This document shows, piece by piece, positions 5,043-35,665 of a stretch of 64,000 nt of DNA. The notes below the pieces were generated by a model that was not told the DNA's origin, did not search any database, and saw only the letters and a list, made by a program, of their open reading frames with translations. The translations under genes and the position numbers were made by a program. Within the stretch, counting starts at the first letter, position 1. Each line of letters starts with the position of its first letter. Origin of the DNA: a virus; the IMG/VR virus record IMGVR_UViG_3300020377_000001, positions 1 through 64,000 of that record. One strand, given 5' to 3'.

Positions 5043-5049
5043 TATGCTC

Positions 5050-7558: not shown

Positions 7559-7814
7559 CGCCAAGTCTCCCAATGTCAAACGATTTCGAGAACATCACCC
7601 AAGAGGGGTCCACGCTCAACGCCTCGCAAATGTCCAAAAACTCAGAGACCATTATTGGTCTGTCTCGGAAAAACTCGCCGACTTGCCACTCTGAAAGCGA
7701 CACCGACTCGGCAAGGTCCTTTCTCGTCATACCTTTGAAGGACATGACGCATCTAAGCCTGCTCCTAATTCGCTGCTCCAAAAAGCCTCTTCTTTCGCTC
7801 TCCATATTCTCCAT
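7551..7814 (-). CDS. XRE/Cro-C1 family helix-turn-helix regulator
   Basis: An 87-residue DNA-binding protein. A five-helix HTH spans about residues 12-75, with recognition-helix context MTRKDLAESVSLSEWQVGEFF and the closing helix FLDICEALSVDPSWV. AGGAGG lies 4 bp before ATG 7814. It is first in the leftward recombination operon and divergent from the replication operon, the classic position of a phage switch repressor that controls both directions and its own synthesis. Whether the phage is temperate is not proven by this gene alone. Confidence 0.83.
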   Translation of the reverse strand: MENMESERRGFLEQRIRSRLRCVMSFKGMTRKDLAESVSLSEWQVGEFFRDRPIMVSEFLDICEALSVDPSWVMFSKSFDIGRLGDE

Positions 7815-13205: not shown

Positions 13206-13526
13206 ATGGACATGCTCCTTTATCAAGAAAAAGCCACCAGAACACTCAATCAAACTCTAGGCATGCAGGAATCTTTGACAAACCTGTGCATGGGCATTGC
13301 TGGCGAAAGCGGCGAGCTTATCGACTACTTTAAAAAGCATATTTTTCATGGCCACGAATTGAACCGTGAGCACGTTAAATCTGAGCTCGGAGACATTCTT
13401 TGGTATGTAGCATGCCTAGCAGACACCTTAGAAATATCTCTAGAGGACGTCTGTCTTTCAAACATTGAAAAGCTTGAGTCAAGGTATCCAGAGGGCTTCA
13501 GCAAAGAGATGAGCAAAAACAGATGA
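13206..13526 (+). CDS. MazG-like nucleotide pyrophosphohydrolase
   Basis: A 106-residue all-alpha NTP pyrophosphatase. It shows the MazG metal-binding helices GIAGESGELIDYFKK and KSELGDILWYVACLA (E-x2-E and E-x2-D). The enzyme hydrolyses NTPs to NMP and PPi, and phage versions are thought to trim non-canonical or alarmone nucleotides or tune nucleotide pools. ATG 13206 has GAGGGA upstream; an upstream TTG would add 10 residues. It overlaps the next gene by ATGA. Confidence 0.85.
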   Translation: MDMLLYQEKATRTLNQTLGMQESLTNLCMGIAGESGELIDYFKKHIFHGHELNREHVKSELGDILWYVACLADTLEISLEDVCLSNIEKLESRYPEGFSKEMSKNR

Positions 13527-13708
13527 AGATAATGTTGGAGATTCATAGCGATATGGTTGACTGGATTGACAACCAGATCTTGGAGAAGGGTCTAGACGAA
13601 GATTGTGCTGATCGTAAAGCTCCCTACCTGAGGGGTCAAATCATTGAGTCTTTGATCGTCTCCGCTCGTGAAAGCTCCAGGAAGGATTTTCGAGGGTCAC
13701 GTAATTAG
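13523..13708 (+). CDS. Small hypothetical protein
   Basis: A 61-residue acidic then basic protein, ATGA-coupled to the MazG gene. It has an amphipathic helix (MVDWIDNQILEKG) and a second helix in the C-terminal half (GQIIESLIVSARESS). The pattern is weakly compatible with a small RHH-type or accessory regulator, but no family is recognised. It converges with the Dam-like gene, overlapping it by 12 bp. Confidence 0.55.
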   Translation: MKIMLEIHSDMVDWIDNQILEKGLDEDCADRKAPYLRGQIIESLIVSARESSRKDFRGSRN

Positions 13709-14272
13709 GTCCATAAGGTTTGACTCAGAGGCCGCAACCCAATACGCCTTATCAACCGATCCGATTGGCTGAAAGCTTCTAGAGCAGAACGACCCTAGTC
13801 GCGTGCCCGTCATCCTGCACGACGATTCGGACCACACGATAATCATGGATCCAACCACGTTTCCACCCACAGGCTTGCCTGTCGATGGGTTCAGAAAACC
13901 TACCCTGCCCTTCATGAACCACAATTCTGACGCCTTCCCAACCACGTATTTGTGAAACCATTTCACGTCTACCGTTGACGGCATGAGGGCCACAACCTCT
14001 TTCACCTCACCATCCCTCGCGGCATGCCAAGCCCTCGACATGAATTCTGCGCTTTTACTGTAAGGCGGGTTGATAAAAACGCGGTCTCCAAGCGAGGACC
14101 AGCTGTTGGCAAGCGCATTTGACTTATAGGTAAAGAAGCGAGCACAGAGTGCGTTTTTGGGATTGGCGCATGCATCGCCCGTAAATCTAAAACGACTGTT
14201 GAGACGCGCAAACAGCTCTGGAGGGGTTCTCCAATCGTCTTTCGAGTCCTCTCTGTGCTTCCTGTGGCTCAT
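13697..14272 (-). CDS. Phage N6-adenine DNA methyltransferase (Dam, PF05869-like)
   Basis: A 191-residue SAM-dependent methylase. It has the phage Dam signatures DDWRTPPELFARLN near the N-terminus, FTGDACANPKN, and the catalytic NPPY motif in RVFINPPYSK, then ALMPSTVDVKWFHKYV. Length and order match the PF05869 family. It methylates adenine N6, probably to evade restriction or mark phage DNA. It is last in the RHH/recombinase operon, starting with an ATGA overlap. No restriction nuclease is nearby. Confidence 0.87.
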   Translation of the reverse strand: MSHRKHREDSKDDWRTPPELFARLNSRFRFTGDACANPKNALCARFFTYKSNALANSWSSLGDRVFINPPYSKSAEFMSRAWHAARDGEVKEVVALMPSTVDVKWFHKYVVGKASELWFMKGRVGFLNPSTGKPVGGNVVGSMIIVWSESSCRMTGTRLGSFCSRSFQPIGSVDKAYWVAASESNLMDLIT

Positions 14273-14583
14273 TGCGATATCACTGAGGGGTTATCCCTAG
14301 CATGTCTTAGCAAAGCGTCGTACAGACCCCCGTTCACGCCCCCCTGGATAGATCTGGTGAGGTGAACCCCGTTGGAGTCCGACTGAACATGCAATACTGA
14401 TGAGTCGCTCAACATAAAGACATGTGAGCACGGTATGCTCCTGTCTTCAACCTTGGATAGGAAAAACCTAACTCGACCTAGGATTTCATCGCGCATGTCA
14501 TCTGTTGCATGCATCTGAACCTTAAACCAAAACCGCTGTACCAGACGAAGAAAGTCGCTAATTATGTGTATAAAGACCCTCAT
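14269..14583 (-). CDS. Hypothetical protein between recombinase and Dam methylase
   Basis: A 104-residue protein joined by ATGA overlaps to the genes on both sides, so it is translated as part of that operon. The N-terminal third is helical and basic or aromatic (FLRLVQRFWFKVQ); the rest has short strands. No domain was recognised and no membrane signal is seen. Confidence 0.58.
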   Translation of the reverse strand: MRVFIHIISDFLRLVQRFWFKVQMHATDDMRDEILGRVRFFLSKVEDRSIPCSHVFMLSDSSVLHVQSDSNGVHLTRSIQGGVNGGLYDALLRHARDNPSVISQ

Positions 14584-15296
14584 ACTAGTCCCTCCTGCAA
14601 TATCAGGCTTACCTTATCCTTGGCCTCGAGAACCTTGAGCCCCCCAGCGTAAATCTTGTGAATAGACATTTTCACAAAAGGCTTTCCTGCACGATTGACG
14701 TATCCCTTTTGGTTAACCTTATCACAGATCTTTTGGTACGACACCCCAGCGTCCCTCAGGCGCATAACCATCTTGAGAACCTTTGCTTCCTCTCGGTGGA
14801 CGTGCAGATTTCCATCCTCGTCAGCAAACATTCCCCAAGGGACCGTGCCGGCCCTCTTTCCGTTTCTTCGAAGCTGACGTAGCGCCGCTCGAGTTCTCAT
14901 TTTCGTTTTAGCGAGCTCAAACTCCGCGAAGGAATCCATGATTCGTCTCATGAGGACTGCGTTTGGATCGTCACTATGGTCGAGTCCATCTGCCGACATA
15001 ATCACTGCGCCGCGCTCCTTAACCAAGGTCTCAGCGGCAATGGCCTGAGAAACACCACGCGCAAGACGGTCACGCTTTGAGATGATGAGAATATCTCCCT
15101 CCCCTAGGTCATATATCGCATCCATCAGCACTTCGCGCTCATGAAGTGCAGCAGCGCCAGAGACACCCTTTTCAACATGAATTGCCTCTACAGAAAGACC
15201 CTTACGCTCGGCCATACCCCTGCACTCAAAGATCTGTGCATCTGGGCTAAGGTGTTGCTCATCGGTCGATACTCGTACGTAAATTACTGCACCCAT
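14580..15296 (-). CDS. Serine recombinase (resolvase/invertase family)
   Basis: A 238-residue site-specific recombinase. The catalytic Ser is residue 10 in YVRVSTDEQ, and the conserved Arg context ISKRDRLARG and the long E helix (AEFELAKTKMRTRAALRQLR) are present. A recombinase/HTH-like C-terminal region ends soon after. It is longer than simple resolvases (about 185 aa) and much shorter than large serine integrases (about 450 aa or more), so it may be a resolvase, invertase or reduced integrase. No attachment site could be found by eye. It follows an RHH-like gene by 1 bp. Confidence 0.85.
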   Translation of the reverse strand: MGAVIYVRVSTDEQHLSPDAQIFECRGMAERKGLSVEAIHVEKGVSGAAALHEREVLMDAIYDLGEGDILIISKRDRLARGVSQAIAAETLVKERGAVIMSADGLDHSDDPNAVLMRRIMDSFAEFELAKTKMRTRAALRQLRRNGKRAGTVPWGMFADEDGNLHVHREEAKVLKMVMRLRDAGVSYQKICDKVNQKGYVNRAGKPFVKMSIHKIYAGGLKVLEAKDKVSLILQEGLV

Positions 15297-15297
15297 A

Positions 15298-15477
15298 CTA
15301 CACGTCCTTTCGATCTGAAGAGTTTATAAACTGCATCGCAAGAAAGCGGATTACCTGAGACCTAGACATCCTAACGCCAATCTTGGACTCCGCCAGTATG
15401 GTGGACTGCTCTAGAAGAGACCGTATCTCTAGGTTTGGATCGTGAATTGAAAAGTTGGGTGATGATTTGTTAGACAT
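15298..15477 (-). CDS. Small RHH-like DNA-binding regulator
   Basis: A 59-residue protein from ATG 15477, with AAGGAG 6 bp upstream; an in-frame ATG 30 bp further up is less likely. A polar N-terminus and the helix pair SLLEQSTILAESKIG and SRSQVIRFLAMQFI resemble ribbon-helix-helix proteins. It is first in the operon with the serine recombinase, and the palindrome TTGGT-AAG-ACCAA overlaps the promoter just upstream. Autorepression and control of recombinase level are likely but inferred. Confidence 0.6.
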   Translation of the reverse strand: MSNKSSPNFSIHDPNLEIRSLLEQSTILAESKIGVRMSRSQVIRFLAMQFINSSDRKDV

Positions 15478-15494
15478 TTTCTGCTCCTTCTCTG

Positions 15495-15534
15495 TTGGTA
15501 AGACCAATCTACTGGAGCAAATAACTCAAGTCAA
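15495..15534 (-). promoter_or_regulatory. Promoter and operator of recombinase operon
   Basis: On the minus strand TTGACT (15534-15529) and TAGATT (15511-15506) are separated by exactly 17 bp, giving 5/6 and 4/6 matches to the sigma70 consensus, upstream of ATG 15477. The perfect palindrome TTGGT-AAG-ACCAA (15495-15507) overlaps the downstream edge of the -10 element, where a bound repressor would block transcription. Confidence 0.6.
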
Positions 15535-15553
15535 CACTATTTCTAGATATAAT

Positions 15554-16285
15554 CTATATAGATCCTGTGTAGGTGTAGATGTCGCCCGACTTTGTGATTA
15601 CGTCGAATCTTATTAGTTGATTGATTACGCTTCTGGATATTCGTCCATGTTTCGGTGTGAAGCACCCCGCCGGCGCAATCTTTGACAGGTCGTCAACTGT
15701 GAATGTGTCTCCGCTAGAATAGTGGAGCTCAATTTCATTGATGAGCTTCCTTGCCTCGAGTGTTGGGTTTCGGTCGTAGTTGAATACGCTCATGCTTGGT
15801 CCTTTCGGGTCGTATGTTGTACAGGATTCACATCCTGTGTATTTTTTGCTTCTTACGTTTTCGCATCGAGAAAAGCACCATCTGCAAACCTTATATCCAC
15901 CCTTCACTCTGGGTGATTCAGGTCCAACTCTATTGAATTCTGATCCACAGCACTTGCACTTGAACCAAATATCGTAAGTCACCTCAACATGATCTGCAAA
16001 CAGAAAGTCTGGTCGAATACGCGCCATTTCAGATCTTACGACTGACTCAACAGACCTCCAGATTGCACAAAGCTTCTGGTCGGTTTTGTCGAGATAGTGT
16101 CCGTGACTATCCGCAAGAGCAATGTTTATTAAAGTGGGCCAGTGCTTTTCATCAACGATTTCTCGAATCATGTCCAGAACCCGCTCTTGGACTTTCCTCT
16201 TGGTTCCGAGGTTGCAGCTTGCATAAAGGTTTTTGGATCGTTGCGATGTTTGATTCTGCCTTTTCTGGTGCCTACTGAACCCCAT
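15554..16285 (-). CDS. Cysteine-rich zinc-ribbon protein, unknown function
   Basis: A 243-residue protein with a basic N-terminus (RHQKRQNQTSQRSKN), a helical region and a central block with several Cys pairs (CKCC, CRWC with a further Cys, and CESC), probably two zinc sites at about residues 110-165. The C-terminal third looks like a winged helix (FTVDDLSKIAPAG... ISRSVINQLIRFDVI). The layout suggests nucleic-acid binding. It overlaps the upstream gene by one base (TAATG). Confidence 0.6.
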   Translation of the reverse strand: MGFSRHQKRQNQTSQRSKNLYASCNLGTKRKVQERVLDMIREIVDEKHWPTLINIALADSHGHYLDKTDQKLCAIWRSVESVVRSEMARIRPDFLFADHVEVTYDIWFKCKCCGSEFNRVGPESPRVKGGYKVCRWCFSRCENVRSKKYTGCESCTTYDPKGPSMSVFNYDRNPTLEARKLINEIELHYSSGDTFTVDDLSKIAPAGCFTPKHGRISRSVINQLIRFDVITKSGDIYTYTGSI

Positions 16286-17061
16286 TAGGCCGCACCAAGA
16301 TTGATGCTGTCTATTTCACCGTCGTCATCTAGATGGGCCATCTCAATAAGACCAATGTCTGTTTGCGTAATGCTCAGGAGTTTTGGCACTCTAGAGGGTG
16401 AACTATACGGAACCCCTAGCCTGTTCCAGATTTTTTCAAAATATGGGATTGCTGGGTTTATTTTGTACAAACCTGAGGTAAATGGTTCGAGCTCGTTCAG
16501 GTCGAAAGATACAGTGGTTCTTACATGCATAGAGTCGTCGCGAAAAACAAATAGCGGTGACAACCCCTTATTCAGAAGCTTCTTGGCCTTAATGATGTCA
16601 ACAAGGTCAATTCTCTTGATGTCTTCAGAGACAATGGAAAGCATCGCTTCAGCCAAAGAGCACATGGAGTTTGAGTTTTGAAGATACATCCAGTCTTGGC
16701 TCACAGGATCTCTCCACGTAAGAGATTTAAGCTGACCCCCCTCCTGATGGTGGCCCTTAATCACATCGCGTATAACGTCAGACCTAACCATGTCCAGGCA
16801 CGTAGTTTGATCGAGTTCCAAGTATCTCAGCTTCTCAAGTCGAATCTTGGCTAACGTAATCAAGTCAAGGTTTGCCTGAGGGTGCAACGGTCCAGATGGG
16901 GACTCTGTCGGGGTATGGATCAGCCCTCGATCATTTAGTCTGCGTAAAAACGATACCTCGCAATTCATGCGCTCTACGATTTCACTTTCCGTTATCGTCT
17001 TTTCCATCGGCTCTTCTGCTCTTGGGAACACCCGGGGCCCCCGTGTTTGCTTTGGTTTCAT
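16285..17061 (-). CDS. MerR-like HTH domain protein
   Basis: A 258-residue protein with AAAGGA upstream of ATG 17061. Residues about 20-95 resemble a MerR-type winged helix: TITESEIVERMNCEV, LNDRGLIHTPT and the helix ITLAKIRLEKLRYLELDQT. The remainder is not recognised. It is likely a DNA-binding regulator, but no effector-domain signature is seen. It is one-base overlapped with the zinc-ribbon gene, so the two are probably co-expressed. Confidence 0.55.
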   Translation of the reverse strand: MKPKQTRGPRVFPRAEEPMEKTITESEIVERMNCEVSFLRRLNDRGLIHTPTESPSGPLHPQANLDLITLAKIRLEKLRYLELDQTTCLDMVRSDVIRDVIKGHHQEGGQLKSLTWRDPVSQDWMYLQNSNSMCSLAEAMLSIVSEDIKRIDLVDIIKAKKLLNKGLSPLFVFRDDSMHVRTTVSFDLNELEPFTSGLYKINPAIPYFEKIWNRLGVPYSSPSRVPKLLSITQTDIGLIEMAHLDDDGEIDSINLGAA

Positions 17062-17164
17062 AATGGTCCTTTCTGTAACTTATTGGCAAACCCATGGGTC
17101 CGTATGGTGTTCCAGGCTTTGCCCTCATCTTTTTAAGTAGTTTACCTGTTTCATGAGTGGCCAA
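16982..17164 (-). CDS. Possible small basic protein
   Basis: A 60-residue frame from TTG 17164, preceded by AAGGAG and filling the 104-bp gap after the upstream gene, but overlapping the next gene by 80 bp. It is rich in Lys, Gly and Pro with no domain. The RBS and tight gap filling favour it; the TTG start and long overlap weigh against it. Confidence 0.3.
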   Translation of the reverse strand: MATHETGKLLKKMRAKPGTPYGPMGLPISYRKDHYETKANTGAPGVPKSRRADGKDDNGK

Positions 17165-17165
17165 A

Positions 17166-17774
17166 CTACCTTCTCCTTAGTTGCTCTCTTAGTGAAAATT
17201 CACAGTTCAGTGCGTCAGTGACATGAATTCGATCACCATCATAGCCGCGCTCAACGTTTAGGTAAACATGGGCTTTCTTTGGGAGGGATATATTTCCGCT
17301 TATAAACTCCAAACCCTTTTGTGTTAGGCGCCACAAGCCGCTTGTAAGTTGTTCTTCCACAGAGTCCTCAATCGACTGCTCAATGAGCCCCCAGTACTTT
17401 GCTCGAGTGTAATGCCTCGAAGTCCTAAACTCCCTAGGTGCAGACTTGGATACACTTACCCACTTTGCCTCGACCAATATTGGTGTCTTCCCTGACCAAT
17501 CGATGACGCAGAAATTTTCTGCCATCCAGATTAACGGTTCGACGACGGTTCTTGTTAATGACTCGCTTCGCATCTTAACATGTTGTCCACAGCAGGGGCA
17601 GTACGACCCCTCTAAGAGGAAGGCACTTAGTCTTCTTTGGACATGCTCAATCGTTAACTGTTTTTCGGTGGGATCTAGCGTAGGTAAGTACCCAACCATC
17701 CTGTCAATTTCTGATCGTGGGTCAATCTCTAAATTTGTTGTCTCTGTATCAACAAATAATTCATACTGCTTCAT
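17166..17774 (-). CDS. Hypothetical protein with CPCC zinc knuckle
   Basis: A 202-residue protein with AGGAG before ATG 17774. A CPCCGQH motif near residue 60 resembles half of a zinc site. The C-terminal part (RLTQKGLEFISGNISLPKKAHVYL) resembles a winged-helix end followed by a strand, as in small phage proteins with a central beta-hairpin. Known activity cannot be assigned. Confidence 0.57.
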   Translation of the reverse strand: MKQYELFVDTETTNLEIDPRSEIDRMVGYLPTLDPTEKQLTIEHVQRRLSAFLLEGSYCPCCGQHVKMRSESLTRTVVEPLIWMAENFCVIDWSGKTPILVEAKWVSVSKSAPREFRTSRHYTRAKYWGLIEQSIEDSVEEQLTSGLWRLTQKGLEFISGNISLPKKAHVYLNVERGYDGDRIHVTDALNCEFSLREQLRRR

Positions 17775-17802
17775 TTACTGCTCCTTTGTGACGTTGGTCA
17801 GA

Positions 17803-18093
17803 TCACTTGATTTTGAAGTTTTTACAAAATTCCATACCCTTCTCGGTGAGCTCACAGTCAATAACATGCACAGTGGACCTCGTGCCAGACATCGAAACCT
17901 TTTTGTGCTCAAGTACCTTAACGAGACCCATGCGTTGCAGTCTCATCACGGCCCTAATTCTTGACGCCCCCCTTCTTTTCTTGGATGTCGGCTCAACCCG
18001 TACACTTTGTTGAATCCGAAATATAGGAAAGCTTTGACAGTTTGCCTGATAGATCTCGTCGAGAAGACCTCTAGCGTAGAGTCCTAGTCTCAT
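17803..18093 (-). CDS. Small winged-helix-like protein
   Basis: A 96-residue basic protein. GGAGG lies 7 bp before ATG 18093; the longer frame from 18300 is antisense overlap with the upstream gene. Residues about 40-90 (RIRAVMRLQRMGLVKV... STVHVIDCELTEKGMEFC) look like a winged helix with its wing strands. It overlaps the preceding gene by 23 bp. It is probably a small transcription regulator, by fold impression only. Confidence 0.55.
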   Translation of the reverse strand: MRLGLYARGLLDEIYQANCQSFPIFRIQQSVRVEPTSKKRRGASRIRAVMRLQRMGLVKVLEHKKVSMSGTRSTVHVIDCELTEKGMEFCKNFKIK

Positions 18094-18352
18094 TGACGAA
18101 CCTCCCTTCCATAATCTTCCTAAGCTCGTATTCAGCATACTCAGCAAGGATGTCCCAAACCTCATCCCAACCACTACCTCTTTCGGACCAGTAACGTGCG
18201 GCCCCTTCGCTATCTGCCCCGAGAGACTCCTGAATACACGCAATCGCGTTGAACATTGCCGATTTCGCGATTTCGTTTGAACGGGACTGAATTTCGTCAT
18301 TCATGTAATCGTTCACATAGACAACGGGCAAGTTTATGGTTTCTTTATGCAT
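18071..18352 (-). CDS. Small hypothetical protein
   Basis: A 93-residue, mostly helical acidic protein, with GAGGTG close to ATG 18352. Helices are suggested by SNEIAKSAMFNAIACIQESLG and VWDILAEYAEYELRKIMEG. No family was recognised. It overlaps the downstream winged-helix-like gene, so the two are likely co-translated. Confidence 0.55.
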   Translation of the reverse strand: MHKETINLPVVYVNDYMNDEIQSRSNEIAKSAMFNAIACIQESLGADSEGAARYWSERGSGWDEVWDILAEYAEYELRKIMEGRFVNETRTLR

Positions 18353-18372
18353 ATCACACCTCGATTTAGACT

Positions 18373-18597
18373 CTAATTATAGATAAAAGCCACGAGCATG
18401 TCTTGAATGTCTTTCATACAAGCCTTACTCATGTCTTCGCTCACGCTTTGACCGTCATCTCTGTGGACTGAAATGATTCTGATGGTGTCCTTTTTTCTGG
18501 CGCCTCGAACTAGGTCACACTCATACTTTACGGTCAACGGGCACCCATAATCCTCTGACCAAAACCTAAAAAACTTAACTACTCCTACATTCTCCAT
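18373..18597 (-). CDS. Small hypothetical protein
   Basis: A 74-residue protein starting inside the upstream gene (13-bp overlap), with GAGGGA upstream of ATG 18597. Mixed alpha/beta appearance (VVKFFRFW, TVKYECDLV, TIRIISVHRD), no membrane segment and no recognised domain. Confidence 0.5.
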   Translation of the reverse strand: MENVGVVKFFRFWSEDYGCPLTVKYECDLVRGARKKDTIRIISVHRDDGQSVSEDMSKACMKDIQDMLVAFIYN

Positions 18598-18905
18598 CCC
18601 AAGATCCCTCGCTTGACCTCTCGGATCAGGCTTATAATCTCTATCTTCTCAATGTGACTGTCATATGCGGTGTGTGTAATATGAACGTCGGCACCATCAA
18701 CAAGCCTGCTGTAAAGCTTGATGGTTGCCCAGGGAAACATACGAGACAGCACGGTGCCAAAATTATCGAGATATTGCTCGAACTGTTCAGTAGACATTTT
18801 CAACTGAAGCAGCGTGTGCTCATCTGGACTACCGACAGACACCCGGATTTCAGGCTCATCCCCAACGGGTTCTGCTCTTTCTGGAAAGCTAAGAAGGTTT
18901 GCCAT
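18585..18905 (-). CDS. Small hypothetical protein downstream of repeated promoter
   Basis: A 106-residue protein. ATG 18905 has AAGGA 8 bp upstream; ATG 18932 (115 aa) is an alternative closer to the promoter-like element at 18957-18987. A strand-helix pattern (EIRVSVGSPDEHTLL, MSTEQFEQYLDNFG, IKLYSRLVDGADVHITH) suggests a small alpha/beta fold. Function unknown. Confidence 0.52.
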   Translation of the reverse strand: MANLLSFPERAEPVGDEPEIRVSVGSPDEHTLLQLKMSTEQFEQYLDNFGTVLSRMFPWATIKLYSRLVDGADVHITHTAYDSHIEKIEIISLIREVKRGILGWRM

Positions 18906-18956
18906 GCCCAAATCCTTTTTCATCTCTTCCAATTTTCCTGAAAAGCTCCCGAAAGT

Positions 18957-18987
18957 TCATGAAAGGTTTTCTGTGTTGGCCGTAATT
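18957..18987 (-). promoter_or_regulatory. Repeated phage promoter, copy a
   Basis: Minus-strand TTACGG, 17 bp containing AAAACCTT at its end, then TCATGA in the -10 position, upstream of the gene starting at 18905/18932. One of seven copies between 18.9 and 22.2 kb with identical spacing. The -10 is the most divergent of the set. Confidence 0.55.
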
Positions 18988-19045
18988 CTGTGCAAACCAA
19001 CCGCAAAAGTTGAAGTGATCGCGAATAACAAAGATCGGTGGGCGC

Positions 19046-19381
19046 CTAGCTTGGGGCCGGAAGGCTCAGTGTAACGCGACCACGCTGCATCCCAAATATG
19101 GACAGTCCACCCTTTGTTGTAAAGCATTCGTCTAACACAAACATCGACTGGTCTATGATGGTCTGTACACGCCTGGACTCACGACCGAGCGTTCTGCTGC
19201 CAGGTGTCAATTCGCTATGGGCCAGCCTTAAGGTCTGGCGCTCAACAAGCATGAGCTTATCCCAGACGTAGCAAATCGACTTTTGCCTATCTTGCTCTGT
19301 CTTGTATCCATGAACCACCAGCTCAAAAAGTAGTCCCTTCACGTCCAAAGTCGCAATGTATATCGGATTGTCGAAGATCAT
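19046..19381 (-). CDS. Small hypothetical protein with its own promoter
   Basis: A 111-residue protein beginning 18 bp after the -10 of promoter copy b, which lies inside the end of the upstream gene. No good ribosome site precedes the ATG. The N-terminal half is alpha/beta (IYIATLDVKGLLFELVVHGY, a helix to about residue 50), then a basic loop. No domain recognised. Confidence 0.52.
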   Translation of the reverse strand: MIFDNPIYIATLDVKGLLFELVVHGYKTEQDRQKSICYVWDKLMLVERQTLRLAHSELTPGSRTLGRESRRVQTIIDQSMFVLDECFTTKGGLSIFGMQRGRVTLSLPAPS

Positions 19382-19695
19382 GTGACAGGCCGTCCATGCT
19401 CTATAAAGGTTTTTTGATCTTGACGTAATTTGCGCTGTTTCTCGGTAGTTTCTTCGAGTAGCTCAGACCACTTTTCTCTCGTGTCTAGGTGATCTGAGGC
19501 CGCACGGAAGTCATCAAGAAACTCCATCAACTGGTGGTCCTTGATTGACTCGGCGATTTGATAGATTTTCTCGCAGGTCTGCTCTGTCCAGATCATGCAT
19601 GGATCGCACCCGCCATCTGCCTGAGTATAGACGTACCCACACTCGGTGCAGGTGATGTCATCACCCTCTGTGATCCAGTTGTCGTAAGATTTCAT
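19378..19695 (-). CDS. Small zinc-binding hypothetical protein
   Basis: A 105-residue protein from ATG 19695, with GGAG upstream and ATGA overlaps at both ends of its operon. The N-terminal CTECGYVYTQADGGCDPC gives four Cys in two C-x2-C pairs, a likely zinc ribbon at residues 15-32. The rest is an acidic, charged helix (KIYQIAESIKDHQLMEFL...). Promoter copy b for the next gene lies within its 3' end. Confidence 0.57.
   Translation of the reverse strand: MKSYDNWITEGDDITCTECGYVYTQADGGCDPCMIWTEQTCEKIYQIAESIKDHQLMEFLDDFRAASDHLDTREKWSELLEETTEKQRKLRQDQKTFIEHGRPVT
19400..19430 (-). promoter_or_regulatory. Repeated phage promoter, copy b
   Basis: Minus-strand TTACGT, 17 bp ending AAAAAACCTT, then TATAGA, placed 18 bp before ATG 19381 and inside the 3' end of the upstream coding sequence. 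One of four copies with a perfect TATAGA. Confidence 0.68.
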
Positions 19696-19898
19696 GTTGT
19701 CGCTCCTGGCCTGCCAAAGTACCCTTGGCAGCCTGTACACCTGAGAGCTGACCACCCACCAAAGGACACCTTGTGGACCTCCTTACAATGCGGGCATACG
19801 ACTATACACATGTACATGGTTCTGTCGGCATGATTGTTATACACCAGCCACTTTTGAAGCATGACTGATTGTTCAGGTTTTGATTGTTGGATATTCAT
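19692..19898 (-). CDS. Small zinc-binding hypothetical protein
   Basis: A 68-residue protein from ATG 19898, with GGAGGATCAG upstream; the longer frame to 20048 lies antisense-like over the upstream gene. C-terminal pairs CPHC and CTGC form a probable zinc ribbon. ATGA overlaps join it to both neighbours, in the transcript starting at promoter copy c. Confidence 0.57.
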   Translation of the reverse strand: MNIQQSKPEQSVMLQKWLVYNNHADRTMYMCIVVCPHCKEVHKVSFGGWSALRCTGCQGYFGRPGATT

Positions 19899-20191
19899 CT
19901 GATCCTCCGAATGTGAATCGAGGAGACGCCACAGCCTGGCAGGATGCCGCTGTGCTTCCCGTTGCCTGTGCCAAAGCGATTGACATGGACAGCGAAGTTC
20001 TCTGTAAGTTGGTCTGCTAGGTCCTCGCGTTGCCGGTGGCCAAGCCATTTCATGTCGGCATGAGTAACGAGCTTTGAGCCCTTGATGAGACGGTTTAGTG
20101 TTGCGACGAAGTCGTCAACCGTGTTGAGGAAAGTATAGTCGAATTTATTAGTCTGAGTATCTTCATATGCATCGATAAAATCTTTGAACAT
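19895..20191 (-). CDS. Small hypothetical protein, operon head
   Basis: A 98-residue protein from ATG 20191, with AAAGGA upstream and 18 bp after the TATAGA of promoter copy c. It is helical and acidic at the start (MFKDFIDAYEDTQTN) and basic at the end. It heads an operon of three ATGA-coupled genes running to 19378. No domain recognised. Confidence 0.55.
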   Translation of the reverse strand: MFKDFIDAYEDTQTNKFDYTFLNTVDDFVATLNRLIKGSKLVTHADMKWLGHRQREDLADQLTENFAVHVNRFGTGNGKHSGILPGCGVSSIHIRRIR

Positions 20192-20209
20192 CGTTGGTCC
20201 TTTCAAAGG

Positions 20210-20240
20210 TCTATAAAGGTTTTTCTATTGTTCCGTAATT
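20210..20240 (-). promoter_or_regulatory. Repeated phage promoter, copy c
   Basis: Minus-strand TTACGG, 17 bp ending AAAAACCTT, then TATAGA, 18 bp before ATG 20191. Same architecture as the other six copies. Confidence 0.7.
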
Positions 20241-20260
20241 AAAGGGTTATGTCAAAAGTG

Positions 20261-20827
20261 TCATGCGTTATATAAGCCTTGCTCGTCTATAGGAATTTTA
20301 CTCACCGAGTCAATAAACTCTTCAAATTGAAGCCTGACCTCCTTAAGGGTTTCAGCATCGTGAACCTGGCACAGGTAAACGCAATCACCATATTTGTACT
20401 CAAGGTCGCCTTCAAAGTATCCATGAGAATCCCCAGACACATGTCCTGCAAGGATGCCATCGCAAAAGACCAGAAAACGGCGTGGTTCAAGCGCAGGTAA
20501 GGGATTCGATTGGACCTCGATCTGGATCTTGATCTTGTTTTTATCCCAGTCAAAGGTAGGTAGTGCAATGTTGACAAATGCATCAGAGTCAAAGACGATC
20601 ATATCAAAGCCATTCTTGTGTGCGTATGAGAGCACCTTCGTTATCCATTCTGGCTCGCTTGAGTAGTCTTCGTATGGATCGAAGGATACGTACATGAAGT
20701 AGCCGTATAGAAACTTATACGCTGAGTGTGTGCCAAAGCTTGGCTCAGACGAAGGCATGTGTGCGGTGCTGATATGTAGTGTTCTAAATTCTGTTCGACA
20801 GGCGTTCTTAGGTCTTTGGTTATTCAT
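20261..20827 (-). CDS. Hypothetical protein with its own promoter
   Basis: A 188-residue protein starting 21 bp after the TATAGA of promoter copy d, with GGAGC in between. It has an aromatic N-terminal half (YKFLYGYFMYVSFDPYEDYS), then alternating strands (IKIQIEVQ, RFLVFCDGILAGHV, YKYGDCVYLCQVH) and a C-terminal helix. No known family. It is a monocistronic unit. Confidence 0.55.
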   Translation of the reverse strand: MNNQRPKNACRTEFRTLHISTAHMPSSEPSFGTHSAYKFLYGYFMYVSFDPYEDYSSEPEWITKVLSYAHKNGFDMIVFDSDAFVNIALPTFDWDKNKIKIQIEVQSNPLPALEPRRFLVFCDGILAGHVSGDSHGYFEGDLEYKYGDCVYLCQVHDAETLKEVRLQFEEFIDSVSKIPIDEQGLYNA

Positions 20828-20848
20828 GATGATAATGCTCCGTTGATT

Positions 20849-20879
20849 TCTATAAAGGTTTTCTGAGAGTGACGTAATT
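20849..20879 (-). promoter_or_regulatory. Repeated phage promoter, copy d
   Basis: Minus-strand TTACGT, 17 bp ending AAAACCTT, then TATAGA, 21 bp before ATG 20827. The -35 end touches the stop of the upstream gene at 20879. Confidence 0.7.
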
Positions 20880-21067
20880 TAGTCTTCCACATCCTCGGCA
20901 TCGCAATCGCAGTATGAGCATGTAAAACACGCTGCATCTACGAAGTGCCTGTCAACCGACTCGACAAGCCTGCGACGGTCATCTAAAGACACGGTTATAT
21001 GAAAGTATGCCTCTGTCTTTGGGCATGTTCTGCTTTCGCATTCTGGGTTACTACATCGTAACCTCAT
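20879..21067 (-). CDS. Small zinc-binding hypothetical protein
   Basis: A 62-residue protein, ATGA-coupled to its upstream neighbour. Cys pattern is C-x4-C-x4-C near the N-terminus (RCSNPECESRTC) and C-x2-C-x2-C-x-C near the end (CFTCSYCDC), with an acidic tail. It resembles short Ogr/zinc-finger-like phage proteins, but the family is not certain. Confidence 0.57.
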   Translation of the reverse strand: MRLRCSNPECESRTCPKTEAYFHITVSLDDRRRLVESVDRHFVDAACFTCSYCDCDAEDVED

Positions 21068-21291
21068 TGGTCTACCCTGCTTTCAATCTCGTGAACAACC
21101 TCACCAGAATCATGTGACCATGCCACCACGCGCAGTGCGCCATCCGCGTAATAGACACCGAACCGCTCAACGCCGTCGTCGTCCATGATCACCAGGGCGC
21201 CACCCTGCATCTCAATGGAGATGTCTGCACAGTCAACAGTGCCATCCCCGTTTGCGTCGTCACTAAGCCTTAAATCAATTCGCTGAATCAT
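21064..21291 (-). CDS. Small protein with dockerin/EF-hand-like calcium loop
   Basis: A 75-residue acidic protein from ATG 21291 in ATGA overlap with the gene before it; GGGGG precedes the start. DANGDGTVDCADI matches the 12-residue Ca2+-binding loop of dockerin and EF-hand modules (D-x-N-x-D-G-x-V-D-x-x-D). The C-terminal half is beta-like (GALVIMDDDGVERFGVYYADGAL begins this part). A single loop only; no cohesin partner is evident. Function unknown. Confidence 0.57.
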   Translation of the reverse strand: MIQRIDLRLSDDANGDGTVDCADISIEMQGGALVIMDDDGVERFGVYYADGALRVVAWSHDSGEVVHEIESRVDQ

Positions 21292-21419
21292 CGCGCACCC
21301 CCAGTCATTTTTTCTAGCCATTCGTTTGCCTCAACCTTGCAGACAAAGAGTCTGATCAGCTGATCGTTCCATAACCCCAACCAGCACTGATTTATCTCTG
21401 AGTACTTAACACTAATCAT
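21288..21419 (-). CDS. Very small hypothetical protein
   Basis: A 43-residue frame with ATGA overlaps at both ends, between two other short genes in the transcript from promoter copy e. It is rich in Trp (four), with core pattern INQCWLGLWNDQLIRLFV. Coupled overlaps on both sides are strong support for translation despite the length. Confidence 0.5.
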   Translation of the reverse strand: MISVKYSEINQCWLGLWNDQLIRLFVCKVEANEWLEKMTGGAR

Positions 21420-21586
21420 GAGTAGTCCCTTTCAATGTAGGCCCAAACCTGGCCCATTTTGACCTCGCCGTGCTCGCAGGCAAGATCGTATGCCATCCTG
21501 TCTATCTCGTCTTTACAATCCTCTCGACTCCGAGCGACATACTCTACGGTCGAGTTTAAGTTGAAGTTAACAATCACCACTTTCAT
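21416..21586 (-). CDS. Small hypothetical protein, operon head
   Basis: A 56-residue protein from ATG 21586, with GGAG 5 bp upstream, 14 bp after the TATAGA of promoter copy e. The N-terminal strand VVIVNFNLN is followed by an acidic helix. It heads four ATGA-coupled small genes down to 20879. Confidence 0.52.
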   Translation of the reverse strand: MKVVIVNFNLNSTVEYVARSREDCKDEIDRMAYDLACEHGEVKMGQVWAYIERDYS

Positions 21587-21600
21587 ATCTGCTCCAATGC

Positions 21601-21631
21601 TCTATAAAGGTTTTTTAATCTTGACGTAATT
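21601..21631 (-). promoter_or_regulatory. Repeated phage promoter, copy e
   Basis: Minus-strand TTACGT, 17 bp ending AAAAAACCTT, then TATAGA, 14 bp before ATG 21586. The predicted leader is extremely short and overlaps the ribosome site. Confidence 0.7.
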
Positions 21632-21649
21632 AAGCTAACCGCAACATAA

Positions 21650-22003
21650 CTATACACTTCTCTGAATTGACTTGATTTGGTACACCACCGTGTACTCGAA
21701 GTCACAAGACGTACAGAATAATTGAGAATAAAACAGGGTAAGGCCGGCACAGTACCGTTCACCATCTGCCTCGATATTATCGCACCCACACTTTGGGCAC
21801 GTACTTAACGCTCTATGAATAAGAGATTGCTCGTCTGTGGTCCTCTCAACCACTTTGACCACATTACGATTCTTGGATTTCAGGTGAGCGACGGTCTGAT
21901 CACGAAAGTCATCGCCCCAGACCTCATCCACAACCGTGTACCCATCGGCACCCTGGTGATAAACCGCGTAGCTTTTCTGTCTCTCTTCTATCTGATAGCT
22001 CAT
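21650..22003 (-). CDS. Hypothetical protein with C-x2-C pairs
   Basis: A 117-residue protein from ATG 22003 (AAAGGTGG upstream; ATG 22018 would add 5 residues and lies 15 bp after the -10 of copy f). The C-terminal half holds CPKCGC and FCTSCDFEY, a zinc-ribbon pattern. The first gene of the leftward small-gene block, behind tandem promoter copies f and g. Confidence 0.57.
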   Translation of the reverse strand: MSYQIEERQKSYAVYHQGADGYTVVDEVWGDDFRDQTVAHLKSKNRNVVKVVERTTDEQSLIHRALSTCPKCGCDNIEADGERYCAGLTLFYSQLFCTSCDFEYTVVYQIKSIQRSV

Positions 22004-22033
22004 TCTGCCACCTTTCATTTTGCTCTCGGAAGT

Positions 22034-22063
22034 TCCAGAGCCGTTTTTGAGATCTGACGTAAT
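22034..22063 (-). promoter_or_regulatory. Repeated phage promoter, copy f
   Basis: Minus-strand TTACGT, 17 bp including CAAAAACGGC, then TCTGGA. A divergent copy with conserved spacing, upstream of the gene starting at 22003/22018 and in tandem with copy g. Confidence 0.5.
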
Positions 22064-22106
22064 CGCCGATCCCCAGGAAAAGTTTTTTCACTCTAGCCGC
22101 CCAAGT

Positions 22107-22137
22107 TCCACAAAGGTTTTTGGGATCGGCCGTAATT
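22107..22137 (-). promoter_or_regulatory. Repeated phage promoter, copy g
   Basis: Minus-strand TTACGG, 17 bp ending AAAAACCTT, then TGTGGA. It is 73 bp upstream of copy f with no gene between, giving tandem promoters at the head of the leftward block. Confidence 0.55.
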
Positions 22138-22670
22138 TCACCCCCTATACGCGGGCGGGCGCACGCCCGCATCACCCGCGTCATGAGGAAATTTTCGGCA
22201 CTGCTCAAATGTTCAGCAATGAACGGATGTTCAGCACCAACTATTTGCCCACATGAGACCACATCGGATCACATTGTTGCCTCGAGAACCTACACGGGAT
22301 CACATCGGATCACATTGTCGCCTCGAGCACCTACACAGGATCACACAGGATCACACTATGGCACCGTGTAAGCGCACCGCCTACACACATGGCACCATTG
22401 CCACTATCTAAGGCTATTGGGTACGACCAAGGCGATCCAGTGCTCTACGGTGGCCAATATGTGAACAAAAGGCGCCCCACCTAGTAGAAAAATGTGATTT
22501 TTTTTAAGGTACTTTTATTAGTAAAAAGCCAATGATTGCAAACACTTAGAGTCCGTCGCTCTGTTTCTGTTGTTTGTTTTTGTGATCATGTGGGTTGTGT
22601 TCCGTTGTTTATGGTGTACCATGTAGGGGTAACCGCTGGAGAGTTACGGAACAAAACGAAGGGAAATCAA
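22138..22670. other. 533-bp divergent intergenic region
   Basis: No convincing gene. It separates the leftward promoter array from the rightward accessory block. It contains two ATGTTCAGCA direct repeats (22209-22218 and 22228-22237), the GGATCACA-type tandem repeats listed separately, and an A/T-rich stretch near 22490-22530 followed by the leader of the gene at 22671. A rightward promoter is not clear. An origin or control region is possible. Confidence 0.45.
22260..22357. repeat. Tandem iteron-like repeats (GGATCACA)
   Basis: Two imperfect copies of about 36-40 bp, each CGGATCACATTGT-YGCCTCGAG-MACCTACAC, followed by further GGATCACAC units, so GGATCACA or a near match occurs about five times in under 100 bp. 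Spacing is regular and the region is between divergent transcription units. This is the look of iterons or operator arrays. Confidence 0.6.
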
Positions 22671-25872: not shown

Positions 25873-26550
25873 GTGTCTACCGTTCGACAATTCAACACGG
25901 CCTCGAGGACCGCAGACACACCAACACACCACACAGCAGACGAAGCCGAGATCGGCGATTTAAGCGACGCAAAGCAAAAGCACCACCGCAGACACGCAAA
26001 GACAGCCGAAACGGCAGCAGACGCCAAGCACGGCACACACACGGACAAACGAACCACCGACCACCGACGCAAGATCAAACGATGCACTCGGAGCGATTGA
26101 GCCCAGGACCACGATCCACGGTTCGAGCTGAGTAGGAGACCGCGCCCCGATGCACTCGGAGAAGGTGACCACGGGTTACCATCGACCGGCGAAGACCACC
26201 ACTACCGATCGCGATTGCTCGCCACTGGTACACATTGCCACGTCTATCGATTGATCCAAACTTGATCCCTTTGCAAGGTGAACACGTACCGAGAACAAGG
26301 CCCACAGATACCCAGTAGAGCCCGAAAACGACCGTATAAGCGATTGAATACCACTAAAGGCTAGCCCAGGACCTAAAGAGACCACAGCGGAGCATAGGCG
26401 CCCAATGTGCAAACCTTCGCGGGATATGCTGGCGGACTGGTTGAGGTTTGGCGGATGTGTCGGGTTTGGTTTGGGGTTATTGTGGGTTTGATGGATGGCA
26501 GCGGAAGGCCGATCGAGGCTGCCGAGGTAACCGCCCTTTAGTGGGTCACC

Positions 26551-26592
26551 GCCTCGGAGAGTATCGGCACAGCCTCGGAGATTGTCGGAGAC
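26551..26592. repeat. Two 21-bp direct repeats
   Basis: GCCTCGGAGA begins at 26551 and again at 26572, each followed by NNNTCGG, so two 21-bp units lie head to tail, the two-turn spacing typical of replication iterons. A partial inverted copy (GAGGCTGCCGAGG) lies about 35 bp upstream. Confidence 0.5.
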
Positions 26593-26961
26593 TGTGAACG
26601 GATGCCCAGTTTATCGGGTTGGATGGTGCTTTGTTTCGCATATCGTAAACAACCGACCGATCGGTTACTGGTGAAGCCTACCCTATACGCACACAATCAG
26701 GCACCCCGTGGGGACTGGAAAGGGGTTTTAACATAGCGGACAACCCCCATGACAGCGAGATCTGAAAATTGGATTCCAATGCACTGTTATGAACCAAATG
26801 CCAGCCTTCTGAGCGACGTTATGACCCAAACATGAGCCGATGTATAGGTTCACCTATCTAAATTGAATACAGAGGAGTTCTCAGCCTTCTAAGGTGATTT
26901 GTGTCACCTAGTTTTGGCTACCTTCTTTGTCGAGCTCTAAATATATCTTGATTGGAAAGTA

Positions 26962-27001
26962 GGGAGTCCCCATGAAAGGACCAACAAACCTGAGGACTCC
27001 C
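26962..27001 (+). promoter_or_regulatory. Hairpin enclosing a start codon
   Basis: GGGAGTCC (26962-26969) and GGACTCCC (26994-27001) are perfect complements with a 24-nt loop. The 5' arm contains the GGGAG ribosome site and the loop contains ATG 26972 of a 34-codon frame, so folding would hide the ribosome site. Confidence 0.5.
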
Positions 27002-27076
27002 AATGTCACAACGGAGCAGTTGATGACTCACTCAGTTGTACCAGCAAATCAGATTCTTTCAACCAATCAATTCTGA
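26972..27076 (+). CDS. Possible 34-residue leader peptide
   Basis: A short frame with GGGAG 5 bp upstream, inside the hairpin described at 26962-27001. The peptide is polar, with no domain or membrane segment. Only the ribosome site and hairpin argue for it; it may not be translated. Confidence 0.25.
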   Translation: MKGPTNLRTPNVTTEQLMTHSVVPANQILSTNQF

Positions 27077-27174
27077 GCCCCATCTCGATTGAGCACTGAA
27101 GGGGGGTTTGGGGGGTAGTAATGTTTAGTAGTTTTTTAAGTAATAGATTTAGAGAGTATACACCTAATTGGTTT

Positions 27175-27238
27175 ACTTAGTTATAAACAACTAAGTTAGT
27201 TATATATATATATATATATTATTATACTAATTAGTTAG
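27175..27238. repeat. A/T-rich inverted repeat and TA tract
   Basis: ACTTAGTT (27175-27182) and AACTAAGT (27189-27196) form a perfect inverted repeat next to an alternating TA run (about 27199-27219) and ACTAATTAGTTAGG. This is an easily melted segment, as found in DNA-unwinding elements, or a UP-element-like site beside the alpha-CTD-like gene. Confidence 0.5.
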
Positions 27239-27351
27239 GGGCGCTAAGTGTCTGAAAGCAAAGGGGAATACGCTCAGTATCTATTAAATGGATACAGGAT
27301 GCAAAAGGATTGAATACAGGATCAATTCTTTCCTCAAGTGATTACAGGTGC

Positions 27352-27858
27352 TTACGCTATCTGGATGCCGATTTGTAGCCATTGATTACAATCGGGGTTT
27401 TTGGGCATAAATTTAGGATCAAGTCGCCGCTTTTCGGACTCTGTTATGAGTCGGAGGTTTTTGCGTTCGAGAGCATACTCGAGCTCATCGACAGACTTGG
27501 CTCCGATGCCCGGTTTCTCGAGCAACTCACGTCTTGTAAATTGAACGACGTCTCGGACCTTGCCTGCCTGTATGCACGTCGCAATTCGGTTTGCGGTCTT
27601 GGTGCTGATTTCGAGTCGATGGATTCCGCTTTCAAGGATTGAGTCTTTGTCAATTCCTCGAACATTCGCTTCAAAGGTTCTGCCGTTGGGCGACATTCCT
27701 GTAATCTTCGATTTGGCTGCGTGATAGTTCAACTTCAAAACTTCAGATCCGTCCTCAGAGTAGAAAATGAGCCCCTCACCAGTTTGCTGCCCATAGCAAA
27801 CGAGCTCTTCACTCGTTAAGGGATCAAAGACAGTAATTGTCTGTGTCGGCCTCGTCAT
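27352..27858 (-). CDS. RNA polymerase alpha-CTD-like domain protein
   Basis: A 168-residue protein. The N-terminal part (about 1-80) is unrecognised and beta-rich. Residues about 80-135 read LEISTKTANRIATC, VRDVVQFTRRELLEKPGIGAKSVDELEYALERKNL, which align with the C-terminal domain of bacterial RpoA (LELTVRSANCL... GDLVQRT.VELL..PN.GKKSL.EI...L...GL). Positions that in E. coli alpha contact UP-element DNA appear as Lys (for R265), Asn (N268), Lys (K298) and Ser (S299). The alpha NTD is absent, so it cannot replace alpha. It may bind A/T-rich promoter DNA or sigma/activators to redirect host polymerase. It is a single gene flanked by non-coding DNA. Confidence 0.72.
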   Translation of the reverse strand: MTRPTQTITVFDPLTSEELVCYGQQTGEGLIFYSEDGSEVLKLNYHAAKSKITGMSPNGRTFEANVRGIDKDSILESGIHRLEISTKTANRIATCIQAGKVRDVVQFTRRELLEKPGIGAKSVDELEYALERKNLRLITESEKRRLDPKFMPKNPDCNQWLQIGIQIA

Positions 27859-28024: not shown

Positions 28025-28669
28025 GTGTCTTTTGAAATTAGATCGATAACCAGAACCGAGGCTTTGCCGTTATTTCAAAGGTATCACGGGTATAAGTCAA
28101 TGGGGGGCGTCTGTACATATCTATTCGGAGTATTAGAGCGCGGTTCTGTTGTCGCTGCGTTCGCCTGGCAGCCTCCAGCGGCAGGTTGTGCCAGATCTGT
28201 GCTTCCTGATGCCAGTTACGGTGTTTTATGCTTATCTAGAATGGTGGCTGTCCCAAAGGAAGAGCGTAATCTACGACACCTGTCAAAGCCTCTGCGATTT
28301 CAAGTGCGAAATTTAATAGATAGGGGGCGATGGCCTGCTTTGGTCACATTCTCAGATGAAGGCTTGGGGCACACAGGGCACGTATACAAGTGCTCTGGAT
28401 GGAAAAAAACCTCTCGAAAGAAGCGCTCACAGTTCATGGACAAAGAAGGCAGAAGGACTGCACCGTATAGTGACGGAAAAAAGGTAGAAGGGCTGATTAA
28501 GGTAGGGGCAGCCTATATTCAGCGGTGGGAGAAGCATGCTGTTCCACCTGAAGAGGCTGCAGGCTGGATTGAGGCAAACGGTTGGCGGCGTGAAGCGATC
28601 CCAGGAAAGTTCTGGTCATCAGGCAACCAGGCTTATCGGATGTCAAAACAGCAATCCATGCCATTTTAG
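28025..28669 (+). CDS. Mom-like DNA modification protein (GNAT-type)
   Basis: A 214-residue protein from GTG 28025 with AAAGGAG 6 bp upstream. It resembles the phage Mu Mom family, GNAT-fold enzymes that convert adenine in DNA to a bulky N6-modified base. Seen: YLFGVLERGSVVAAFAWQPP, then the core CLSRMVAVPKEERNL... LSKPLRF, and ALVTFSDEGLGHTGHVYKCSGW, matching the SRL/R and GH-G-YqA-W pattern of Mom proteins. It is 74 bp before a D12 adenine methylase. Simple acetyltransferase is the alternative. Confidence 0.65.
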   Translation: MSFEIRSITRTEALPLFQRYHGYKSMGGVCTYLFGVLERGSVVAAFAWQPPAAGCARSVLPDASYGVLCLSRMVAVPKEERNLRHLSKPLRFQVRNLIDRGRWPALVTFSDEGLGHTGHVYKCSGWKKTSRKKRSQFMDKEGRRTAPYSDGKKVEGLIKVGAAYIQRWEKHAVPPEEAAGWIEANGWRREAIPGKFWSSGNQAYRMSKQQSMPF

Positions 28670-28742
28670 CCTCTTGGAATCATTAGGAAAATCCGATCGA
28701 GTGTGGCATACAGATTCTTGTGCCGCTACAGAAAGGACCGAC

Positions 28743-29564
28743 ATGAAATACACAGGCAAAAGCGTTCTGCGATACCCGGGTGGCAAGACAAGGGCAGTCT
28801 CTCTGATTATGCCATTTCTTACTCGATTCGAGGCAAAGGTGCTGGTGTCCCCGTTTTTTGGTGGTGGGTCGATAGAGTTTGCTTGGGCTCAGCAAAAGCC
28901 GAGTTGTCGTGTTGAGGGGTATGATATCTATCCACCGCTTGTGGCGTTTTGGAGGGAGGCTCTGTCAAACCCAGGACCTCTAAGCAACAAGGTTGACGCC
29001 TATCGACCAATGGACAAGGATTTGTTCTTATCACTACAGAAGAAGCTCCCAAGCCTTTCTGGGCGGGATGCTGCTGCAGCGTTCTATGCCCTTAACAGGT
29101 CTAGCTTTTCGGGCGCCACAATGAGTGGAGGGATGTCTCCAGGCGTAAAGAGGTTTACAGAGAGCTCAATACAAAGACTTGCCGATTTCCATGCGCCGAA
29201 TGTGAAGGTTCGACTAGGCGACGTGTTTGACGTTGTCGAAGACCTCATTGACTCAGACCCTGAAGACTCGGTGATATATCTGGACCCCCCATACAAGATT
29301 GATGACTCGGCTTTATATGGACACAAAGGAAACGCACACCGAGGATTCGAGCACGAAAGGCTGGCCGAGCTAGTGCATAGACTGAACGGTAAAGGATTTC
29401 GTCTGGTTTTAAGTTACAATGACAGTGATTCAATACGAGCGCTGTATAGCCGCTATTTGATCACTCCGTTGTCTTGGTCATACGGGATGAAGAATGTGGC
29501 AGGAGGCTCGATGGGCTCATCTTCTGAGCTTTTAATTTTGTCGGAACCCTTCAGTACCCAATAA
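28743..29564 (+). CDS. D12-class N6-adenine DNA methyltransferase
   Basis: A 273-residue Dam-like enzyme from ATG 28743, with AAAGGA upstream; the frame above overlaps the Mom-like gene. SAM site: LRYPGGKTRA and SPFFGGGSIEFA. Catalytic motif DPPY (SVIYLDPPYKID), and ALNRSSFSGA typical of D12 enzymes. It methylates adenine N6. Together with the PF05869-like Dam at 13.7 kb the phage has two unrelated adenine methylases. Confidence 0.9.
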   Translation: MKYTGKSVLRYPGGKTRAVSLIMPFLTRFEAKVLVSPFFGGGSIEFAWAQQKPSCRVEGYDIYPPLVAFWREALSNPGPLSNKVDAYRPMDKDLFLSLQKKLPSLSGRDAAAAFYALNRSSFSGATMSGGMSPGVKRFTESSIQRLADFHAPNVKVRLGDVFDVVEDLIDSDPEDSVIYLDPPYKIDDSALYGHKGNAHRGFEHERLAELVHRLNGKGFRLVLSYNDSDSIRALYSRYLITPLSWSYGMKNVAGGSMGSSSELLILSEPFSTQ

Positions 29565-35663: not shown

Positions 35664-35665
35664 GA

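Follow-up and report, generated by a model that had tools for sequence, protein, structure and literature searches.

Layout and distribution of the repeated element

We analyzed 64,000 bases of viral DNA (the window), which are the first part of the 75,141-base IMG/VR record IMGVR_UViG_3300020377_000001; the remaining 11.1 kb of the record was read as L001. The record encodes RecE-like and Sak-like recombination proteins, a DnaB-like helicase, a DnaC-like loader, and a large terminase, together with a 2191-amino-acid (aa) tape measure protein, a serine recombinase, and several DNA methyltransferases, and on the basis of this gene set it was assigned to the tailed phages of siphovirus type. Within a block of small minus-strand genes, a 30-base element is repeated seven times between 18,957 and 22,136 (copies a to g), all on the minus strand, and an eighth copy (h), also on the minus strand, lies outside this array. 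A related element site was found in the IMG/VR contig L002 (31.8 kb), whose terminase is 89% identical to that of the phage.

All copies have a common layout, namely ATTACG, ten bases, an AAAACC-like box, two bases, and a hexamer that ends in GA. The alignment of nine sequences (eight copies and the L002 site) contained 11 invariant columns (ATTACG, AA, C, and GA) and the same spacing throughout, with variation at most of the ten positions that separate the boxes. In the array, the second box is AAAACC in six copies and AAAACG in b, and it is better conserved than the hexamer. Loose similarity continues 3' of the hexamer with the majority consensus CTT..G.G.GC. Over 35 bases that take in the spacer, c and f have 97% identity, whereas d, e, and g have the boxes in common and not the spacers.

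The preliminary description of this DNA had read the seven copies as promoter-like, with TTACG(G/T) as the −35 element, a spacer of exactly 17 bases, and TATAGA as the −10 element of four copies. All seven were present at the positions given there, and the −35 hexamer with its 17-base spacer held in each of them and in copy h. The hexamer after the spacer is TATAGA in four of the seven, and TGTGGA, TCTGGA, and TCATGA in the other three. The spacer ends in AAAACCTT in six of the seven and in AAAACGGC in copy b.

The significance of the copies was evaluated with a 35-column matrix built from the seven array copies, in which each copy was scored with itself left out. The best matches of the full seven-copy matrix in 100 simulated 75-kb genomes, one per genome, had a mean of 13.3 and a maximum of 21.6 bits. 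Six of the seven leave-one-out scores exceeded this maximum; copy b is not significant by sequence alone because its 17.5 bits fall within the null range. The score of b was reached at nine positions in the whole record, a number that fits the seven array copies (b included), copy h, and a weak site at 16253. A 20-base pattern with up to three mismatches gave six matches in the window compared with a mean of 0.00 in 100 shuffles. In a repeat search that was blind to the preliminary description, the element family ranked first both in the 13–24 kb region and in the whole record.

The genome-wide motif search that had been proposed as a check showed that the motif is not scattered, as the 75-kb record contained only copy h and the weak site at 16253 outside the array. 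The best score on the plus strand was 12.3 bits, so no copy occurs there. The eight copies are confined to one 8.5-kb minus-strand block, and the late genes have none. The weak site (16219–16253, minus strand) lies in coding sequence and scored 21.3 bits; it retains AAAAACCTTTAT and has lost ATTACG. It was not counted as a copy, as its score lies just below the null maximum.

Position of the copies relative to genes

Start codons were assigned by eye from the open reading frames, and the copies and the genes that follow them are listed in Table 1. Six of the eight copies end 14–33 bases before a start codon, an arrangement not reached once when eight sites were placed at random 200,000 times. 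All six genes that head a unit at 18.9–22.1 kb carry a copy, which bears out the proposal that the copies head small units, while five genes within units (starts at 21419, 21291, 21067, 19898, and 19695) and ten gene starts downstream of 18.9 kb have none. Five copies had been described as lying shortly before a start; this was observed with gaps of 14–21 bases for five of the seven, with 33 bases for g and 88 for a. Copies c to h are each preceded by a gene end. The copy reported inside the preceding coding sequence is f, and copy d likewise overlaps a preceding stop codon. A location within or over the end of an upstream gene is also seen for internal promoters, and d and f were therefore counted in favor of a promoter.

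Table 1. Copies of the element and the genes or units that follow them. Scores are leave-one-out values, except for copy h, which was scored with the seven-copy matrix.
Feature	Position	Strand	Score (bits)	Remarks
Copy a	22107–22136	−	31.2	73 bases upstream of b; no gene directly after; 88 bases to a start codon
Copy b	22034–22063	−	17.5	Weakest in the array; 15 bases before start 22018
Copy c	21601–21630	−	38.0	TATAGA type; 14 bases before start 21586
Copy d	20849–20878	−	36.7	TATAGA type; overlaps preceding stop codon; 21 bases before start 20827
Copy e	20210–20239	−	27.8	TATAGA type; 18 bases before start 20191
Copy f	19400–19429	−	37.0	TATAGA type; within the end of the upstream gene; 18 bases before start 19381
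Copy g	18957–18986	−	23.5	33 bases before start 18923
Copy h	13676–13705	−	25.6	No gene after
Gene after b	21650–22018	−		122 aa, two CxxC pairs
Four-gene unit after c	20879–21586	−		
Gene after d	20261–20827	−		188 aa, matches DUF5983
Three-gene unit after e	19378–20191	−		
Gene after f	19046–19381	−		111 aa
Eleven-gene run after g	13697–18923	−		Ends with serine recombinase and Dam methylase; no clear copy before h

Copy h and its counterpart in a related contig

Copy h was absent from the preliminary description. The matrix match (13709–13676, minus strand) extends over the Dam methylase stop codon and, on the plus strand, over the end of a 61-aa gene. The L002 contig has a counterpart at the same place (12216, minus strand), which scored 25.9 bits with the matrix from the seven array copies only; the next-best site among 80 loci fetched with the terminase had 17.1 bits. 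Copy h and the L002 site differ at seven positions over 35 bases, none of them in an invariant column, and the surrounding kilobase is 66% identical. The site has thus outlasted strong divergence of its surroundings, and coding on both strands of part of this stretch may explain some of the conservation. L002 ends approximately 2 kb beyond its element site, short of the region of the main array.

L002 is colinear with the phage across the two ends of the record, with L002 15.1–15.4 kb corresponding to 73.9–74.2 kb and L002 18.0–18.2 kb to 2.2–2.4 kb. Because the contig spans the join of the ends, the map was taken to be circular and the record (approximately 75 kb) near-complete, and the motif search therefore covered almost the entire genome.

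Searches for relatives and further arrays

No DNA-level relative of the phage was found among 50,697 phage records. A terminase search of genome_contigs gave 21 loci, the best of which were 44–57% identical over the matched part, and consequently neither a close prophage nor a host was found; plasmid records gave 90 matches, every one below 60%. An alignment search with the Dam methylase found only the L002 contig. The 188-aa and 258-aa genes of the array had no relatives in IMG/VR, and the 258-aa and 243-aa genes had none in the phage collection.

No further array emerged from three pattern scans of IMG/VR. The strict scan returned no stretch, and the looser scan returned 45 stretches with one match each. 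The third returned a single stretch, the L002 contig; as its pattern was built with knowledge of the L002 site, only the absence of other stretches is informative. When 135 sequences were scanned, more than one match above 14 bits occurred only in the fetched loci L090, L094, and L118, none of which was convincing. Four of the 45 stretches fetched by the motif (L110, L130, L126, and L103) outscored the L002 site, and some of them may be true single copies, although they were selected by the motif match itself. Repeated 32-mers in seven of the 80 terminase loci (G001, G002, and L003–L007) revealed no comparable non-coding array. One of these related phage loci, L006, carries a palindrome-like repeat in four copies near 2072, 5713, 17973, and 18815, centered around CACGTTGCAACGTATG / ACGTTGCAACGTATG, which are possibly operators.

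Comparison with known systems

The nearest known kind of element is the extended start-associated sequence (ESAS), which was originally described together with the start-associated sequence (SAS) in cluster K mycobacteriophages (PMC3203893). In phage Adephagia, seven intergenic copies of a 46–47-bp element form a putative promoter with hexamers 17–18 bp apart (PMC11373665). Like ESAS and SAS, the present element occurs in a siphovirus as asymmetric repeats of almost uniform orientation, directly before gene starts and sometimes across the preceding stop codon (PMC3203893, PMC11373665, PMC12699233). ESAS, however, has imperfect 17-bp inverted repeats, whereas no inverted pair lay inside any copy of our element among the 19 pairs listed in the repeat search of 13–24 kb, and the copies have no shared fold. 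ESAS also has SigA-like hexamers and often the 13-bp SAS, whereas the −10 of our element is not sigma-70-like. The 13-bp SAS (GGGATAGGAGCCC) was not seen by eye in the 61-base stretches of the alignment, and no genome-wide search for it was made.

Phage 7-11 has eight late promoters with the consensus GTAAtg-(16)-aCTA, whose recognition depends on a sigma factor encoded by the phage itself, gp47 (PMC8948821). The two systems are alike in having a phage-private bipartite consensus before phage genes at eight sites; they differ in sequence, and the 7-11 sites serve late genes and have a known sigma gene (PMC8948821). At a phage-sigma promoter of the 7-11 type, transcription would be expected to start 6–9 bases from the element. 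In the middle promoters of T4, the MotA box replaces the −35 element and a phage factor is needed, but the lack of a −35 is compensated by an excellent sigma-70 −10, which our element does not have (PMC2988021). The stoperators of cluster A mycobacteriophages are similarly asymmetric, oriented with transcription, and located in intergenic gaps, whereas copies f and h lie in coding sequence; stoperators are 13 bp long with more than 20 sites genome-wide, compared with eight longer sites in one block here (PMC9283540). From these comparisons, we class the element with repeated, phage-specific, start-proximal control elements, and neither as an ESAS nor as a sigma-70 promoter.

Fit to sigma-70 and candidate factor

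Recognition of a sigma-70 −10 element depends chiefly on T at −7 and A at −11. The reading of the hexamer as such a −10 was not supported, as its sixth base is A in all eight copies and T in none, and its second base is A in just four. A sigma-70 scan gave 17 sites compared with 13.0 expected, and none of them was a copy in the proposed register. As the invariant bases are GA, at the positions where reading by a −10 would be least expected, the hexamer is not what a housekeeping sigma factor reads. The observation that the −35 is unlike TTGACA was upheld, with TTACGT or TTACGG in all eight copies.

These mismatches weigh against a promoter, as do several other results. A start 6–8 bases after the hexamer would leave leaders of 6–9 bases for copies b and c, which are too short for a full ribosome-binding site. 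Copy h is directed into the 3' ends of plus-strand genes, and no start codon occurs in the 88 bases downstream of copy a. No match to Sigma70_r2, r4, or r4_2 was found in the record, although a phage sigma factor may have diverged beyond the reach of such models. Pfam scans of a subset of the genes also yielded no sigma factor. PF00940 (single-subunit polymerase) had no match in the record, and the lack of any match in the control genomes makes this search uninformative. Pfam assigned only DUF2793 to a 3231-aa protein.

A 168-aa protein (27352–27858, minus strand) has a domain at residues 72–137 that resembles the C-terminal domain of the RNA polymerase alpha subunit (alpha-CTD), with a Pfam score of 24.3 bits (cut-off 23.8) and an E value of 0.002 to E. 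coli alpha-CTD structures. At the known DNA-contact positions of alpha-CTD (E. coli numbering), the protein has K for R265 and retains N268, G296, K298, S299, and E302. Because of these residues, the protein may well bind DNA. It had no tblastn match in the phage collection, and the one match obtained in a further search (L140) was spurious and antisense. The AlphaFold model, made without an alignment, had a mean predicted local distance difference test score of 41 and was not used. The protein is a candidate part of a factor for the element, and nothing links the two.

Other features of the phage genome

Just upstream of copy a, three tandem 41-base units (22248–22370) are rich in GATC and TGTGATC and may form a regulatory or origin region. 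The phage encodes its own Dam-type methylase (13697–14272) and is rich in DNA modification genes, with a Mom-family protein (28025–28669, plus strand), an adjoining DNA methyltransferase (28536–29564, plus strand), and a further methyltransferase at 4173–5447.

A 366-aa protein of the tubulin/FtsZ family (34626–35726, minus strand) has a TubZ-like C-terminus and matched only Bacillus phage G among the phage records, at 25%. Its presence points to a plasmid-like prophage or to a different cytoskeletal function. Nearly 1 kb at approximately 26400–27350 has no evident gene and contains AT repeats and short inverted repeats; it may be an origin or may serve the TubZ-like protein as a centromere.

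Two small proteins (13523–13708, plus strand, and 15298–15507, minus strand) appeared ribbon-helix-helix-like by eye and had no Pfam match; both have counterparts in L002. A small helix-turn-helix protein is encoded at 7551–7814. The repeated units in the tail-fibre region (61466–63932) are common to the L002 contig.

Interpretation of the element

We consider the chances about even that the element acts as a promoter-type signal specific to the phage and dependent on an alternative or phage factor. It was favored because the hexamer is not of the sigma-70 type, the leaders are short, and no RNA structure was found. On this explanation, the element would start transcription of the small-gene units in a minus-strand (rightward-to-leftward) accessory or early block. 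The ATTACG(T/G) and AAAACC boxes at their fixed distance, followed by the GA-ending hexamer, would be recognized on DNA, and an alternative host sigma factor or an unrecognized phage activator, rather than the housekeeping sigma alone, would recruit RNA polymerase. That the element is read as DNA, that transcription starts at it, that a dedicated factor is involved, and the expression class of the units are inferred. A narrower version, which we regard as improbable, is a lineage-private promoter class in which host RNA polymerase would act with a non-sigma phage factor that reads ATTACG and AAAACC, with melting at the GA hexamer.

The main rival, rather unlikely in our estimate, is an asymmetric operator for a phage repressor or regulator, which would block initiation or elongation in the prophage in the manner of stoperators. 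The element is asymmetric, always runs along transcription, and lies in intergenic gaps or across stop codons; asymmetry and alignment with transcription are also reported for stoperators (PMC9283540). An operator accounts for copies a and h better than a promoter does, and the phage has a Cro/CI-type helix-turn-helix protein and a serine recombinase. On the other hand, the element, with its 30 bases and two boxes, exceeds the 13-bp stoperator in length, and the copies cluster at unit heads instead of being distributed genome-wide, with none at the late genes. A start-associated sequence that acts in RNA, in translation or mRNA processing as first proposed for SAS, would agree with the location immediately upstream of the ribosome-binding site and with the loose similarity past the hexamer, which overlaps that site. 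However, the gap to the start codon ranges from 14 to 33 bases, the ATTACG box lies approximately 45 bases upstream of the start, and no start follows copies a and h. The predicted folds were not common to the eight copies (z-scores of −2.4 to +1.3) and Rfam gave no match at E 0.1, so an RNA structure is unlikely, and we assign a low probability to action in RNA.

The placement of copies c to h after gene ends, the near-identity of c and f with the spacer included, and the small serine recombinase encoded nearby could also indicate borders of exchangeable gene cassettes, as recombinase substrates, or leftovers of local duplication. The sharing of boxes and not of spacers by d, e, and g implies that selection keeps the boxes, no inverted symmetry was reported within the element, and duplication leaves the fixed place before starts unexplained; such an origin of the copies appears quite improbable. 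Ordinary host sigma-70 promoters with weak hexamers would account for the spacing of 17, which is within the 16–18 bases of this promoter class, and for the match of TATAGA to TATAAT at four of six bases. They are very improbable, as the T at the sixth base is absent from all eight copies, the invariant bases lie outside the sigma-70 contacts, the AAAACC box in the spacer is more conserved than the hexamer, and the sigma-70 scan recovered no copy. DNA-invertase (hix-like) and T7-like sites were considered and dropped, for want of inverted symmetry and for wrong length.

If the element is a promoter, many tiny uncharacterized genes of this phage would be driven as separate short units by a signal that the main sigma factor of the host should not read, and the dedicated factor would still await discovery. 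As an operator, the element would represent a system akin to stoperators, in a phage for which no DNA relative was detected among the 50,697 phage records. Under either reading, the eight copies are a ready-made test set.

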